DNA of 60,759 nt from Desulfobacteraceae bacterium (GTDB taxonomy: Bacteria; Desulfobacterota; Desulfobacteria; Desulfobacterales; JAABTS01), in contig JAABTS010000011.1 of the NCBI GenBank assembly GCA_011389735.1, forward strand, positions 1-60,759, written 5' to 3'. This document shows positions 11,740 to 60,759 of the stretch, one piece after another. The translations under genes were made by a program, and so were the position numbers. Under the pieces are notes generated by a model, which saw only the letters and a program-made list of their open reading frames with translations, ran no database searches and had not been told where the DNA came from. Position 1 is the first letter of the stretch. The number at the start of each line of letters is the position of its first letter.

Positions 11740-13478
11740 TGAAGCATATCTTTGCGATCCTCTTGATTCTGGTTGGGATTCCAGGTATGGCGTCCGGCCA
11801 GGACGTTACCGCCCATGTGGATCGCACTCGCATGGCTACGGGGGAATCCGCCCGACTGTCGGTCACTGTCGCCGGTCAGAACGCCGCCGATGTGGATACG
11901 TCGCCGATCGTCGATTTTCGAGTCATATCGCAGGGGACGAGCAGCAGCATCAATATCGTGAACGGGCGAACCACCAGCAAGGTCGTCTATAATTACACCA
12001 TTATTCCATTGAAAACGGGCCGTTTGAAAATCCCCTCGCTTCCAGTCCGGGTGGACGGAATTATTCACAAGACCGAGCCGATCGATATTTTTGTGACAAA
12101 GCAACCTCAAGCCGATCCGGAACAAAGCGATATCTTCGTCACAGCCGAAGTGTCCAATTCGTCGCCGTATTCCGGAGAACAGATAATTTACAGGTTCCGC
12201 CTGTATTCCGCCGTGCGGATCGCCAACGCCGGTTTCAAGGAGCTTCCTGATTTTTCCGGATTCAGCGCCAAACAGGTGGAGCAAAAGGAGGCCTTCCAGA
12301 CCATTCTTGGGGGCCGAAAATTTATCGTCAACGAAGTGGTTTATGTGCTTATGCCCTTGAGCGAAGGGGAAAAGACGATCGAACGGGCCATATTGAGCTG
12401 TGATGTGGCGGTTCGGCGGAAAGACGGTCAGCGTGATTCGTTTGGTTCTATTTTCAACGACCCGTTTTTCAGGGGAATGCGATATGAAACGCGGATATTT
12501 CAGTCCAAGCCCGTGGACGTATCGGTCAGGCCGTTGCCGGAACCGCCGCCGGATGTTTCGTTCACTGGTCTGGTTGGTCATTTTCAGCTTCGGACAGAGC
12601 TGGAAAACAGGGAAATGAAGGTGGGCGATTCAGCCACGCTGTCCGTTACGATCCGGGGCGTAGGGAATATTATGGACGCCGGCGAACCCGCAATCGATGT
12701 CCCCGAGGAATTTAAAACCTATCAGGATACGCCTGAAGAAGAAATTACCGTGGGTTTAAACGGATACCAGGGGAAAAAAATATTTCGGAAGGCGCTGGTT
12801 CCTCTAAAACCGGGTGATTTTACGATCGATCCTGTCGAGATTGCTTACTTCAAGATTCCCGAAGGGGAATATCGGATCCTGTCGGATTCGCCGATCTCCG
12901 TTCATGTAAGCCCGGCGGAGGAAAAAAAGCCGATGGAGGTTTATTCCGGAAACGATGAACACCTCCCGAAAAGCCTGAAACGAAAAGTGGAATTCACAGG
13001 CCGGGATATTCTGCCGCTAAAGGAGGGTATGGACGTTCTCAAAAACAGGAGACCGCTGTCAATTCCTTTCTATGCGGCTCTTATTTTTGTTCCGGCGTTT
13101 ATATTCATCGTACTCTATGCAATGTTGGCGGTTTTCAAAAAAACGGAAACACCCGGAACCATCATGGCGGAACGCGCCGATAAAGCGATCAGGGACGCAT
13201 GCCGGCAGGATCTGCCACAGGTTGAATTCGTGTCCCGCCTGTATTGCGCTCTGGTGTCGTCGATCCTGGCGAAAGCCGATGTCAAGGGCGAAACTCTGAC
13301 CGCCGGAGAGGTTGAAACCATATTGAAATCAAGGGGATATTCGGATGAAATCGCTGATGAGGCGTGCAAGATCCTTACCGATATTGAATCAGCCCGGTTC
13401 GGCGGAATGGAAATGGATTCAGGCGGCCGGAGCAATCTCTTCGAAAAAACCCGTAACATCATCAGGACCTTGAAATGA
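11739..13478 (+). CDS. batD: BatD, oxygen-tolerance family periplasmic protein
   Basis: A 579-aa protein with a signal peptide (HIFAILLILVGIPGMASG), several beta-sandwich repeats facing the periplasm (including the VYNYTIIPLKTGRLKIPSLPV block typical of BatD), one transmembrane helix near residues 445-465, and a short cytoplasmic helical tail. It begins within the batBC stop codon and overlaps batE by 4 nt, so it is tightly coupled to both. By family, BatD is the large exported partner of the BatA/B VWA proteins; its ligand is unknown. Confidence 0.9.
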   Translation: MKHIFAILLILVGIPGMASGQDVTAHVDRTRMATGESARLSVTVAGQNAADVDTSPIVDFRVISQGTSSSINIVNGRTTSKVVYNYTIIPLKTGRLKIPSLPVRVDGIIHKTEPIDIFVTKQPQADPEQSDIFVTAEVSNSSPYSGEQIIYRFRLYSAVRIANAGFKELPDFSGFSAKQVEQKEAFQTILGGRKFIVNEVVYVLMPLSEGEKTIERAILSCDVAVRRKDGQRDSFGSIFNDPFFRGMRYETRIFQSKPVDVSVRPLPEPPPDVSFTGLVGHFQLRTELENREMKVGDSATLSVTIRGVGNIMDAGEPAIDVPEEFKTYQDTPEEEITVGLNGYQGKKIFRKALVPLKPGDFTIDPVEIAYFKIPEGEYRILSDSPISVHVSPAEEKKPMEVYSGNDEHLPKSLKRKVEFTGRDILPLKEGMDVLKNRRPLSIPFYAALIFVPAFIFIVLYAMLAVFKKTETPGTIMAERADKAIRDACRQDLPQVEFVSRLYCALVSSILAKADVKGETLTAGEVETILKSRGYSDEIADEACKILTDIESARFGGMEMDSGGRSNLFEKTRNIIRTLK

Positions 13479-14257
13479 CAGCCGCTTCGAGTGATCATAT
13501 AAAACTATCCGCCTTTCTGATCACGTTGTTCGCGTGCTTATTTGCGATCGGTCTGTCCGCGGCTTTCGCGGATGAATCGACCCGTGATTTTCTGAACGGC
13601 GTGGAACTTTATAATGAAGGCGATTATGACGCGGCGGTCCAAAATCTGCTGAAAGTTGCGGAATCAGGAATCCAAAACGGTAAACTGTTTTATAATCTGG
13701 GCAACGCGTATTTCAAAGCCGGTGATATCGGGCGCGCCATGTTGTGGTATGAAAGGGCCTTGAAGCTGATCCCCAATGATCCTGATCTGCGATTCAACCA
13801 TGACTACGTCATGACGCGTTTGAAAGACGAACGTGTTGAAAAGGAATCTCCGGTTTTCCGGATTTTATTTTTCTGGAAACATGTATTGAGTCCCCTTCAG
13901 ATCCAATGGGCCGGAATTATCCTCAACTGTTTGTTTTGGGGAATTCTCGCTGTTCGGCTTGTTTTGAAAAAGCGCCGGATTCTGGGAGTCGAAGGGGTGC
14001 TCGCGCTTGTTTTGTCTCTTGTGTTCATCCTCACCTCGGTTTATACCTGTTACGAAAACAAATTTCAGCAAAAAGCGATCATTGTGTCTGACGAAGTATC
14101 AATTCGTTCCGGGCTTTCCGACGATTCGACGGAATTGTTCGTCCTTCACGCCGGAACCAGGGTGCTGGTGCGCAAAACAAGCAAGGATTATTATCGAATC
14201 CGTTTTTCCGAAGACAAGATCGGTTGGGTGAAGGCGGAAGACGCCGAAATTATATGA
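13475..14257 (+). CDS. BatE-like protein: TPR plus SH3b domain
   Basis: A 260-aa protein with an N-terminal signal or anchor helix, two TPR-like repeats (LYNEGDYDAAVQNL and YFKAGDIGRAMLWYERAL; about residues 36-110), two transmembrane helices, and a C-terminal bacterial SH3 domain of about 60 residues (VSIRSGLSDDSTELFVLHAGTRV...GWVKAEDAEII). TPR plus SH3b is the usual BatE layout. It is the last gene of the operon, directly followed by the nested palindrome at 14270-14699, which may end transcription. Confidence 0.88.
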   Translation: MTAASSDHIKLSAFLITLFACLFAIGLSAAFADESTRDFLNGVELYNEGDYDAAVQNLLKVAESGIQNGKLFYNLGNAYFKAGDIGRAMLWYERALKLIPNDPDLRFNHDYVMTRLKDERVEKESPVFRILFFWKHVLSPLQIQWAGIILNCLFWGILAVRLVLKKRRILGVEGVLALVLSLVFILTSVYTCYENKFQQKAIIVSDEVSIRSGLSDDSTELFVLHAGTRVLVRKTSKDYYRIRFSEDKIGWVKAEDAEII

Positions 14258-14269
14258 AGCAAAATCGTG

Positions 14270-14699
14270 TATCGTCTTCCGGAAATTGCATTTCGATGCT
14301 TTGCCCGCCCGGGATATACTAATAGGGGCTTGGTTCTAATTTCGGCCGTTTTAATAAAACCACGAAATAAACGAAACACACCAAAAAAAATCATCGGTAT
14401 TTTGGCGTCTTTCAAAAAGGTACCAAAGTAGTTTACACTTTTTCGTTACGAAAATCAGGATTAATCTCACACAAAGACACGAAGGCGCAAAGAGATGAAG
14501 ACTTTGTGTTCTTTGTGCCTTTGTGTGAAAACCATTAAAGTGTAAACTGATCAATGAAAGACGCCAGTATTTTCGTGTATTTCGCGGTAGTATTCAAAAA
14601 CATAATTGGCCGGTTTTCGAACCCACCCTCACGACCCTACGAATAGTATGATCCCGGGCCCGCCGCCTTGTGAAATTTAATTTTTGAAAACTTGTATCA
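14270..14699. repeat. Concentric nested palindrome of at least four repeat families
   Basis: This fills the gap between convergent genes. From outside in: family P halves (14270-14325 and 14634-14699, both with CCCGGG cores); GGTTCTAATTTCGGCCG (from 14332) against GGCCGGTTTTCGAACC (to about 14623); CCACGAAATAAACGAAA (14360-14376) against TTTCGTGTATTTCGCGG (14571-14587); GGCGTCTTTCA (14404-14414) against TGAAAGACGCC (14555-14565), exact; AGTTTACACTTT (14430-14441) against AAAGTGTAAACT (14537-14548), exact; and a ~26-bp imperfect pair starting TCACACAAAG (14467) and ending CTTTGTGTGA (14528). All arms share one centre near 14490. No credible ORF lies here. Confidence 0.85.
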
Positions 14700-14757
14700 G
14701 CCCTACGGCTGTGCGAAAAATAAATGTACTGCTTGTTGAAATAAAAGGAGTCGATTT

Positions 14758-16032
14758 TCAATATTGTTCATGAATCCAGGATTTCCCTTTCGGAAACAGA
14801 ACATCGATCAGCAGACCGGTTTTATCAGGCTCAAGCGTCGGTCTGACATATTGGGACGCCGGAAAAATATCGGGCCTGCAATGCTGAAGCTCACGCCATG
14901 TTCGATATCCCAGGCAGAGCGCAGGGGCCAGATTCGGATGAACATTGAACGTATTGGAACACTCACCCGGCCTGTCTGATTCAACGGAGGCGATCTTGCC
15001 GTCTTTCCATGTCAGGTCCACACTGGTCTTGAAAAAGTCCAGGCGAAGAGTTTCTGAAAAATTGTTAAAGCAGCTTTTCGCCATTCGCGTTTCCAATATG
15101 GGAACAAGCTTTTTGAGAAACCCGGGTATATCGGGTATCTTGGTTTGCCAGGCATAGGGGCTGCTATTTTCGGCGCCCATATGGATCGCTGTTTTGCCTG
15201 CTGTTGATTCATGGGGAACATTCAAGCGAATATAGGGTTTGTTCTGTTCCACCGCTTTTTGCTTGCAATAGGACAACATGTGTGTCAACGCTTCATGGCT
15301 GATTCCTTCGCTGACTTCGCTGACGATCAGCCCTTTGCCGAAGCCGTGAGAGGGCGTTCGAGCGTAGAACTTTTCATTTCGTCCGGAATGCTCGATGATA
15401 TGGAATGTGGAACCGTATTCGGTCTCAACGCTTTTGTTTAAAAGATACATCCATTTAGGTTCGTCACGGACGGCGGACACCAGATAAGCCTGTCTGTAAA
15501 CCCGGTCTTCTTCCATTAAAAAAGGAATGTCTTTGGGTTCGGCCTGTCGAAATGTGTATCCGCTGTTTTCCGGCGTATCCGGAATGATATGCAAAGGCAG
15601 GTTGATATGGTTTTCCATTTCAACGGCGAAATGATATCCGAATGTGTCATAAAATCCGGGGATTCCTTGAATGACGGCTATATCAAAGGCTTCGGCTTCG
15701 AGCGTCAGGTCGAATGACAGATTCAGTCGTTTCATCATTCCCTGATTCCGGTATTTTTCCAGAGTCCCGACGATTCCCATTTCCGCGACTTTGAATGGAA
15801 TCCCGCCGATTTCCCATGTCCATGGGATCAGCGCGAATGCGGATACGATCTCGGAGGTGCGCTTTTCCTCGGCGATAAACCAGTATTTTTGTTCCATTCC
15901 CGGGTAATGATGAAATATGGCGTCGGCGAACGAGGCCACGTTTTCGGGATGAAAAACCTCCTTGAACAGAACGTTCAATCTCTGTCCGTCTTCCTCTGAT
16001 TCAGCTCGCCTGAACTTGAAATCATCTTCCAT
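14758..16032 (-). CDS. Eis-like GNAT N-acetyltransferase
   Basis: A 424-aa protein with the layout of the Eis family: an N-terminal GNAT domain with the acetyl-CoA loop RNQGMM (residues 95-100) after MGIVGTLEKY, a second GNAT-like domain, and a C-terminal SCP2-like region (about residues 310-424, ending ...LLIDVLFPKGKSW). Eis enzymes acetylate amines on small molecules or proteins; the substrate here cannot be told. It lacks close operon partners: its 3' end faces the bat operon across the nested palindrome, and a MITE-like repeat separates its 5' end from the J-protein gene. Confidence 0.82.
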   Translation of the reverse strand: MEDDFKFRRAESEEDGQRLNVLFKEVFHPENVASFADAIFHHYPGMEQKYWFIAEEKRTSEIVSAFALIPWTWEIGGIPFKVAEMGIVGTLEKYRNQGMMKRLNLSFDLTLEAEAFDIAVIQGIPGFYDTFGYHFAVEMENHINLPLHIIPDTPENSGYTFRQAEPKDIPFLMEEDRVYRQAYLVSAVRDEPKWMYLLNKSVETEYGSTFHIIEHSGRNEKFYARTPSHGFGKGLIVSEVSEGISHEALTHMLSYCKQKAVEQNKPYIRLNVPHESTAGKTAIHMGAENSSPYAWQTKIPDIPGFLKKLVPILETRMAKSCFNNFSETLRLDFFKTSVDLTWKDGKIASVESDRPGECSNTFNVHPNLAPALCLGYRTWRELQHCRPDIFPASQYVRPTLEPDKTGLLIDVLFPKGKSWIHEQY

Positions 16033-20244: not shown

Positions 20245-20500
20245 TTTACAGGTTTTCAGAAATTAAATTTCACAAGGCGGAGGGCCCGGAAATTGCATTA
20301 TGTTAAATGTTAAATGTTAAAATGTTGAATGTTAAAATGTTGAATGTTAAATGCTAAATGTTAAATGGGAGACTCACATTCAACATTCAACATTCAACAT
20401 TCAACATTCAACATCCAACATTCAACATCCAACATATTAAAATTCGTATATCCCCGGCCGACAAGACGGTGAAATTTGATTTCTGGAAGGTTATATAATT
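20245..20500. repeat. Family P palindrome split by heptamer arrays
   Basis: The left half (20245-20298, AATTAAATTTCACAAGGCGG) and right half (about 20439-20500, GGTGAAATTTGATTTCTGG) of a family P element are separated by about 140 nt of 7-nt repeats. Those start as TTAAATG/TTGAATG units on the left, pass through GGGAGACTCA, then run as CATTCAA/CATCCAA units on the right. The two arrays are reverse complements and could form a long hairpin. They lie between porA and porB within an apparent operon. Confidence 0.85.
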
Positions 20501-35880: not shown

Positions 35881-37333
35881 TCGATCCGAAAATCAGGCGC
35901 CTGAAGAACCGGTATCCAGCCAGGATAAAGCCTCACATCCGGATCCTCGCAGCCGAAACGCCGGAACGAAAAACGGGAAAAATCATACGGCGTCGAATCA
36001 AAGAGGCCCTTCGGCGACTCGGGAGATGATTCTGGCGCGTTTTATACGTCTTTGCACGGTGGCTCTGGCGTCTCCCAAAACCAAAGATGCGGCCGCCGTC
36101 ATCGTAAACCGGATTTCCGAGCTGGTTTATGTAGACCGCGCGGTGATTATCGATTTAACTGCAAAAGATCCGATATTCGCTATTTCCGGAGGCGGAAACA
36201 CGCCCCAGGGCGGAAATTTCGTAGACGCCGTCAACACGGTTAAAAGACGGTATGCGGGTAATCAACAGCCTGCGCTGATTCCGCAAACAACTCAGGACGA
36301 CACTCATCTCTATCAAGTTCAACAGTCCATGGGCGGAACCACTGTTTTATGGATACCGCTCTGGTTGAAAAACGATCCCGCCGTGTCTCCGGCTCATGCG
36401 CTTTGGGTGGAACGGTGGAAAGGCGTCCCATGGGACGATACGGAAATTGAACTGCTTCAAAGAGCCGCTTTGTTTTTAGGCCACGCCTTGATTCCCCCAA
36501 AAGAAAAAAGAATAGATAAAAAGCGAAAGTATAAAAAATATGCGACAATCGGCGCATTGATTTTATTTTTAATGTTTCCGGTGACATCTACGGTGACGGC
36601 TCCGTCCAAAGTCGTTCCGGATCGTCCCGCCTATGTGTTTGCGCCAATGGATGGAATCTTGCGGGAGCTTTATGTCCAACCGGGTAATTATGTCAACATG
36701 AACCAGATTCTGTTTCGTTATGATTCCAGAGTATTGGATAAACGGCTGGATGAGGCGGCCAGAAGTGTGGCGGTGGCCAGGGCAAAGCTGGCGAGGCTCG
36801 AAGGCGCCGCGCATCGCGACCCCGAGGCGCGAGCTGAAATACCGGTGCAAACCCTGGAAGTTGAAAGGGCTAAAGCGGATGTTGAATTTTACGCTGAACA
36901 AAAGGCCAGATCCGAAGTCAGGGCTCCAAAGGCGGGTATCGTTGTACTTGATGATCCTGATTCCCTGATCGGGTCCGCGCTTCAGACCGGCGAGGCCGTG
37001 CTCAGTCTTGCCGACCCCGGGCAAACCAAATTGAAAATTATGGCGTCCGCAAGTGATGTGGAGTTTCTGAAAAAAGGGGCTCAAGTGTCGATCCGCCTGG
37101 ATAGCGATCCTTTTCGAAGCATTGCAGGGAATATCACCAGAATCGGATTCGATGTCACCCTTTCCGAAGACCAGACTCCAACAGTCATAGCGGAAGCCAT
37201 ATGGTTGGAACAGGATATCGAGGTTCATCCGGGCCAGCGCGCTTCAGCCAAGATTTACGGCCGCCCGACCACATTAGGAATGCAGATTTTACGAAAGCCC
37301 TTGATTGCAATCCGGAATCTGGTTGGAATTTAA
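35873..37333 (+). CDS. GAF-domain, membrane-anchored HlyD-type adaptor
   Basis: A 486-aa protein. After a polar, disordered ~45-residue head comes a GAF-like domain (about 50-205; LARFIRLCTVALASPKTKDAAAVIVNRI ... LWIPLWLK ... WDDTEIELLQRAALFLGHAL). One transmembrane helix follows (ATIGALILFLMFPVTSTVTA, about 223-242), then a periplasmic HlyD adaptor with lipoyl-type motifs (YVFAPMDGILRELYVQPGNYVNM; SEVRAPKAGIVVL) and a barrel domain. Topology puts the GAF in the cytosol, joined to a periplasmic adaptor, so export could respond to a cytosolic ligand. Start is TTG with AAGGGGG 7-10 nt upstream, inside the previous gene's end. Its stop codon lies at the edge of the repeat at 37332-37490. Confidence 0.85.
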   Translation: MTDRSENQAPEEPVSSQDKASHPDPRSRNAGTKNGKNHTASNQRGPSATREMILARFIRLCTVALASPKTKDAAAVIVNRISELVYVDRAVIIDLTAKDPIFAISGGGNTPQGGNFVDAVNTVKRRYAGNQQPALIPQTTQDDTHLYQVQQSMGGTTVLWIPLWLKNDPAVSPAHALWVERWKGVPWDDTEIELLQRAALFLGHALIPPKEKRIDKKRKYKKYATIGALILFLMFPVTSTVTAPSKVVPDRPAYVFAPMDGILRELYVQPGNYVNMNQILFRYDSRVLDKRLDEAARSVAVARAKLARLEGAAHRDPEARAEIPVQTLEVERAKADVEFYAEQKARSEVRAPKAGIVVLDDPDSLIGSALQTGEAVLSLADPGQTKLKIMASASDVEFLKKGAQVSIRLDSDPFRSIAGNITRIGFDVTLSEDQTPTVIAEAIWLEQDIEVHPGQRASAKIYGRPTTLGMQILRKPLIAIRNLVGI

Positions 37334-37490
37334 GGCATCCTTCATCTGTCAGTTTACACTTTGAAATCGGGATCGCTATCGCTATCGAGAGCGAATTGTT
37401 TCGATCCCGATAGCGATCCCGATCCCGATCCCGACTTGGAAAGTGTCAGCCACTTTCCTGGGTTTATGAAGGATGCCGAATTTAAAACCT
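37332..37490. repeat. GGCATCCTTCAT inverted-repeat element with hexamer core (family R)
   Basis: GGCATCCTTCAT (about 37334) pairs with ATGAAGGATGCC (to about 37477), with flanking TTTAA on both sides. Inside are AGTTTACACTTT and AAGTGTCAGCCACTTTCC, and a run of GATCCC/GATAGC hexamers on both sides of GAGAGCGAATTGTTT. An inverted copy begins at 60672, and the outer arms recur at 14404 and 14555. The rest of the 513-bp gap to 37846 has only the promoter at 37787. Confidence 0.8.
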
Positions 37491-60595: not shown

Positions 60596-60603
60596 AAGTT
60601 GCG

Positions 60604-60759
60604 GGCCTGGTTCTAATTTCGGCCATTTTAATAAAACCACGAAATACACGAAACACACCAAAAAAAAATTTATCAATATTTTGGCATCCTTCATAAACCC
60701 AGGAAAGTGGTTGACACTTTCCAAGTCGGGATCGGGATCGCTATCGGGATCGAAACAAT
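60604..60759. repeat. Family Q arm plus family R element, cut by window end
   Basis: GGCCTGGTTCTAATTTCGGCC and CACGAAATACACGAAACACA match 14327-14380. They are followed at 60672 by GGCATCCTTCATAAACCCAGG, AAGTGGTTGACACTTTCC and GGGATC/GCTATC hexamers, the inverted form of 37332-37490. Again family R sits inside the family Q arm, as at 14404. The other half lies beyond the window. Confidence 0.85.

Follow-up and report, generated by a model that had tools for sequence, protein, structure and literature searches.

A five-layer bacterial palindrome probably built from nested MITEs, one of which has termini matching those of a DUF6399 insertion sequence

Bacterial MITEs derived from insertion sequences (ISs) are short, non-coding, bounded by terminal inverted repeats and target duplications, and mobilized in trans; in S. 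pneumoniae, the BOX, RUP and SPRITE elements insert into each other (PMC10969869). The Correia/NEMIS elements of Neisseria measure about 107 or 155 bp and have TA termini, the longer form carrying a 50-bp internal segment (PMC2229807). In A. variabilis, H. neapolitanus and T. roseum, longer palindromes enclose GTAG or CGTC repeats (Di Nocera 2013, PMC3733652), and in the archaeon Haloquadratum the small mobile repeats termed SMR-A insert within the palindromes of other elements (PMC3119063).

Here we describe a stack of concentric inverted repeats with a common centre at positions 14270-14696 of a 60,759-nucleotide stretch of DNA (hereafter the window). The window belongs to a 6.52-Mb assembly of 477 contigs, placed in the order Desulfobacterales by its closest named relatives. 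The stack sits between a bat operon (BatA/VWA, BatD and a TPR-SH3 gene) and a GNAT gene, which converge on it. The shared centre on which the original prediction rested was confirmed, and the two exact layers that it had reported correspond to two arm pairs exact over 12 nt (14403-14414/14555-14566 and 14430-14441/14537-14548); the innermost arm pair is 18 nt long (89%). Folded as RNA, positions 14240-14760 have a minimum free energy of -160.7 kcal/mol against a shuffle mean of -117.2 (s.d. 6.1, z = -7.1), a value matched by 0 of 100 shuffles. The predicted fold of 14270-14696 is a single long nested stem, in line with the giant stem that had been proposed. Five layers are visible as such, but the elements are only three, which we call A, B and C. 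Both B and C are built of a palindromic core enclosed by a terminal shell; together with A, these two shells and two cores make up the five layers. When the locus was compared with its own genome by BLAST, 74 matches were returned, in which blocks of the stack recur separately. The further sites at 37332, 41373 and 60604, listed earlier as carrying the same layers alone or in other nesting, are real: they hold a free C, a B shell with another core and a B with C, respectively. The features of the locus and the related copies in the window are:

13475-14257, TPR-SH3 gene of the bat operon
14270-14696, element A, outermost, TATAG...CTATA
14270-14325, forward strand, left half of A, beginning TATCGTCTTCCGGAAATTGC (nhmmer model of A, split copy 'A2-56 // 48-106', and sequence)
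14317-14325, forward strand, left copy of the B target duplication, TACTAATAG, ending the left half of A
14326-14637, element B, at the tip of A (span including nine extra bases)
14326-14403, forward strand, left half of B (recurring copies and sequence)
14326-14347, forward strand, left shell of B, GGGCTTGGTTCTAATTTCGGCC
14360-14382, forward strand, left core arm of B, CCACGAAATAAACGAAACACACC
14396-14403, forward strand, left copy of the C target duplication, GGTATTTT
14404-14565, forward strand, element C, at the centre of B (free copies elsewhere, identity up to 97%)
within 14404-14565, forward strand, shell arms of C, GGCGTCTTTCA/TGAAAGACGCC and AGTTTACACTTT/AAAGTGTAAACT
14467-14528, forward strand, palindromic core of C, TCACACAAAGACACGAAG...CTTTGTGCCTTTGTGTGA
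14566-14628, forward strand, right half of B: duplication, right core arm and shell GGCCGGTTTTCGAACCCACCC
14566-14573, forward strand, right copy of the C target duplication, AGTATTTT
14629-14637, forward strand, nine extra bases, TCACGACCC, between the end of B and the right target duplication
14638-14696, forward strand, right half of A (nhmmer model of A and sequence)
14638-14646, forward strand, right copy of the B target duplication, TACGAATAG, opening the right half of A
14758-16032, minus strand, GNAT (acetyltransferase) gene
20247-20500 (approximate ends), no strand assigned, A with an inverted array of AATGTTGAATG repeats at its tip, without B or C shell
37334-37477, no strand assigned, free C with a TCGGGATC-type core and an exact 8-bp duplication, GAATTTAA
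41373-41536, no strand assigned, free B shell with a CACAAAGTCACAGAG-type core, unlike the core in the stack
60603-60759, forward strand, B with C at its centre, ended by the contig edge

Our element census covers 1.49 of the 6.52 Mb, many of the regions having been sampled around B and C matches. Within this 1.49 Mb, A has 488 profile matches, TATAG...CTATA ends and a modal length of 103 bp; it thus has the form of a Correia-like, TA-bounded inverted repeat of about 105 bp, and no duplication beyond TA was found in its copies in this genome. The termini of B are inverted copies of GGGCTTGGTTCTAAnnTCGGCC (76 pairs in 1.29 Mb), and one B terminus pattern has 415 matches genome-wide. The termini of C read GGC[AG]TC[CT]TTCAT, and one C end has 83 matches. 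Exact target duplications of 8-9 bp flank 53 B and 48 C elements in the 1.49 Mb, against 0 of 9,000 and 1 of 6,000 in shifted controls. B combines terminal inverted repeats and a duplication of fixed size with termini shared with an IS (see below), and C combines terminal repeats with a target duplication; no long open reading frame (ORF) bounded by C termini with a duplication was found in the sampled loci. A, B and C are very likely three small, non-autonomous and non-coding elements (MITEs), nested by serial insertion, with B presumably mobilized by the enzyme of a DUF6399 IS; we hold this explanation, taken as a whole, with high confidence.

The order of insertion can be read from the boundaries. 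The two copies around B (TACTAATAG and TACGAATAG) represent a 9-bp segment that is single-copy in uninterrupted A, and those around C (GGTATTTT and AGTATTTT) an 8-bp segment that is single-copy in uninterrupted B; at this locus each duplication carries one mismatch. The nine extra bases at 14629-14637 are a local change absent from the other B copies listed. No target duplication was seen at the boundaries between shells and cores. Simpler states are present in the same genome (brackets denote nesting): empty A, empty B, A[B] (for example, L036:9490-9820), B[C] with three kinds of C, and free C. The same genome also holds B[C[..]], free C[D], B inside C (L027:9470) and A[core[B]] (L070:9391). 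B is inserted into A and C into B, in that order. The serial insertion put forward in the original prediction thus stands for the two boundaries with target duplications and is mirrored by partial states in the same genome, but the insertions number two rather than four. In the sequence of events that we propose, A, as a Correia-like palindrome, would have been the first to land between the bat operon and the GNAT gene. B would then have transposed into the AT-rich tip of A, duplicating 9 bp of A, and C into the AT-rich centre of B, duplicating 8 bp of B. As each MITE probably pairs a fixed terminal shell with a palindromic core that can be exchanged, two insertions yield five visible layers. 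The nesting would persist since such intergenic DNA presumably offers a harmless, AT-rich target. None of the relatives compared belongs to the same family or genus, and the neighbouring acetyltransferase gene, which would mark the orthologous locus, is absent from all other genomes among the 58 examined.

The symmetry of the structure about one centre would also be expected if the entire stack had arisen by a single inverted duplication of a block. That origin is hardly credible here: direct target duplications mark two boundaries, every layer also occurs by itself or nested differently, and neither A nor B has perfect arms. Serial insertion is what the target duplications and the free and partial states support. 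Whether such insertion would call for a mechanism that puts each new palindrome specifically into the loop of an older one, as had been proposed, is a separate matter. C lies at the centre in 7 of 8 insertions into B, where sequence preference predicts 37% (P = 0.005 if the events are independent), and the tip takes about half of the insertions of B into A, against an expectation of about 17%. However, some B[C] copies may derive from one composite, so the counts are not fully independent, although some central B[C] differ in C subfamily and in duplication and are not all one event. Across all insertions with exact duplications, moreover, stems do not score higher at the insertion point than at local control positions 20-70 bp away (P = 0.40 for B and 0.096 for C). 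Some B copies interrupt the arms of A (TAAATTTC, CAAATTTC and similar), and C is also found close to the ends of A. A palindrome with an insertion in its arm no longer shows as one, so the eye picks out only insertions at tips. The target duplications are AT-rich 8-mers with a weak sequence preference, and most insertions lie outside A, B and C entirely, and outside hairpins. We consider dedicated targeting of hairpin tips unlikely; at most, the data support a modest bias to AT-rich centres.

The position of the stack between convergent genes, together with an RNA predicted to form one long stem, also invites a reading as a selected bidirectional terminator or RNA stabilizer, and terminator-like roles have been discussed for other bacterial MITEs (PMC10969869). 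The two-way terminator previously suggested for the bat and acetyltransferase genes nevertheless fares poorly. No stem followed by a U-tract was found and, as weak evidence from crude gene calls (66% coding), the elements are not enriched between convergent genes: such intergenes make up 17% of all intergenes by count and 21% of their length, and contain 16% of A and 13% of B and C. By the same crude calls (66% coding), A is if anything commoner in divergent intergenes. Selection for such a role is very improbable, and the simplest reading is that the stack is selfish DNA in intergenic space, with any effects on transcripts secondary.

The nested MITEs raise the question of what moved them, and for B a candidate source emerged. 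B-type termini have a match in 41 of the 389 genomes searched, and in other Desulfobacterales they bound MITEs with unrelated cores. In one complete genome they bound a complete IS of 1,865 bp (L148) with termini GGGCTTGATCATAAgATCGGCC, a 560-amino-acid ORF and an exact 8-bp duplication, ATATAATG. Another genome holds a complete 1,857-bp IS in three copies (L170, L184 and L193), with termini GGGCTTGGTTCTAACTTCGCCC that show two changes relative to the left end of B and with exact 8-bp duplications (AAAATTTA, GAATAATT and TACAATTT). A 1,916-bp relative lies on a Thiodictyon plasmid (L197; duplication GTCCAACC) and agrees with the same pattern, as do L183 and L191. The IS is 1.85-1.92 kb long, with a single ORF of about 560-573 amino acids that contains a C-terminal DUF6399 domain (PF19936, E = 8.5e-44) and a weak N-terminal HTH. 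The ORF has no NCBIfam match and no convincing PDB match by sequence. Plasmid records name it 'DUF6399 domain-containing protein', and it is not called a transposase in Pfam, NCBIfam or those records. In an alignment of four DUF6399 sequences, the motifs CEDETF, SDEG, HHSPD and CVEGRN and the residues D160, D214, D234 and E485 are invariant; these conserved acidic residues suggest that the protein is a DDE transposase. At the sequence level, the termini of B match those of the DUF6399 IS, and B would have been moved in trans by this putative DDE-type enzyme, encoded by an IS with B-type termini.

The stack's own genome contains one intact relative (L171, 41% identity), with related but diverged termini and without a duplication. 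No autonomous IS whose ends are exactly those of B turned up there, and the copy that acted directly on B may have been lost or may be missing from the assembly. No DUF6399 relatives were confirmed in viral contigs. No paper naming DUF6399 was found among the open-access papers searched, and the IS family may already stand in ISfinder under another name. Other candidate sources of B were set aside. Profiles for IS1595 (PF12762), IS256 (PF00872) and ISL3 (PF01610) have no match in the genome. ISKra4 elements have GGG ends and 8-9 bp duplications; ISKra4 (NF033572) is present, and no copy has B or C termini. In an inverted-repeat scan, none of the six RAYT/Y1 genes in the genome is bounded by A, B or C. 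A Y1 transposase gene (L157:4908-5843) adjoins inverted copies of CTCGTTCCCACGCTCTGCGTGGGAATGCAG that are perfect, and the two may form a REP/RAYT pair.

The cores behave differently from the constant shells. In this genome, cores lie in or beside a shell at 46 of 47 sites for CACGAAATA, 45 of 45 for GGAGCGCC and 22 of 22 for CACAAAG. Of the 22 sites with the type of core at 14467-14528, 19 place it within C or B shells and three next to a shell end. As a class, cores are palindromic (median fold z: B, -4.0; C, -4.5; controls, 0.3 and 0.1), and many are inverted arrays of short repeats in variable copy number. The TCGGGATC and CACAAAG cores each occur in both B and C shells, and the tips of A bear two further kinds of core. 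On the strength of these shared cores we tentatively raise the possibility that cores are actively exchanged or extended at palindrome tips, in which case a process separate from DDE transposition would swap or build inverted short-repeat arrays at the tips of unrelated shells. One subset of A carries an inverted AATGTTGAATG array at the tip without a B or C shell (window 20247-20500, L056:4203, L082:13693 and others). None of the core sequences was found in the open-access papers searched.

Several related arrangements were also observed. Another subset of A has a GCGATTTTTTAAATCGC-type tip core (L165:14478, L090:16551, L086:15472, L074:15326 and L071:11494). In genomes G351, G292 and G280 (L119, L121 and other loci), B-type termini surround GTAGGGGCAGGC palindromes that resemble GTAG-tagged REPs. 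At L042:10886-12219, B-type ends 1,334 bp apart surround a two-gene module that by eye is Phd/VapC toxin-antitoxin-like; two CAATACCCGTGAATGAATA palindromes lie on its flanks, and it has no target duplication.

These results give DUF6399 a concrete candidate role, as the enzyme of an IS with 8-bp duplications. The range of this IS takes in Desulfobacterales and a gammaproteobacterial plasmid, and it seems to have given rise to a large population of MITEs, judging by the matches to a single B terminus in the stack's own genome. They also indicate how a multi-layer palindrome can arise even if no enzyme is dedicated to targeting tips, and the combination of constant shell and variable core poses a testable question: how bacterial chromosomes build and exchange long palindromes.

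Compared with the systems outlined above, A resembles Correia/NEMIS in its length of about 103 bp and the TA at its termini, a likeness in size and ends. One core described here has GTAGG within a longer palindrome, as in the REP/GTAG repeats. The outer palindromes of those repeats, however, are not tied to a transposase or to target duplications (PMC3733652), whereas the B and C shells come with 8-9 bp duplications and B with a candidate enzyme. SMR-A elements make no target duplication and strongly prefer palindromes (PMC3119063); B and C, by contrast, make 8-9 bp duplications and lie mostly at other AT-rich sites. Bacterial MITEs are likewise short and non-coding, with terminal repeats, duplications and mutual insertion. 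The elements described here depart from them in the constant shell around a widely varying core, and in a likely source IS that encodes an unnamed DUF6399 protein.
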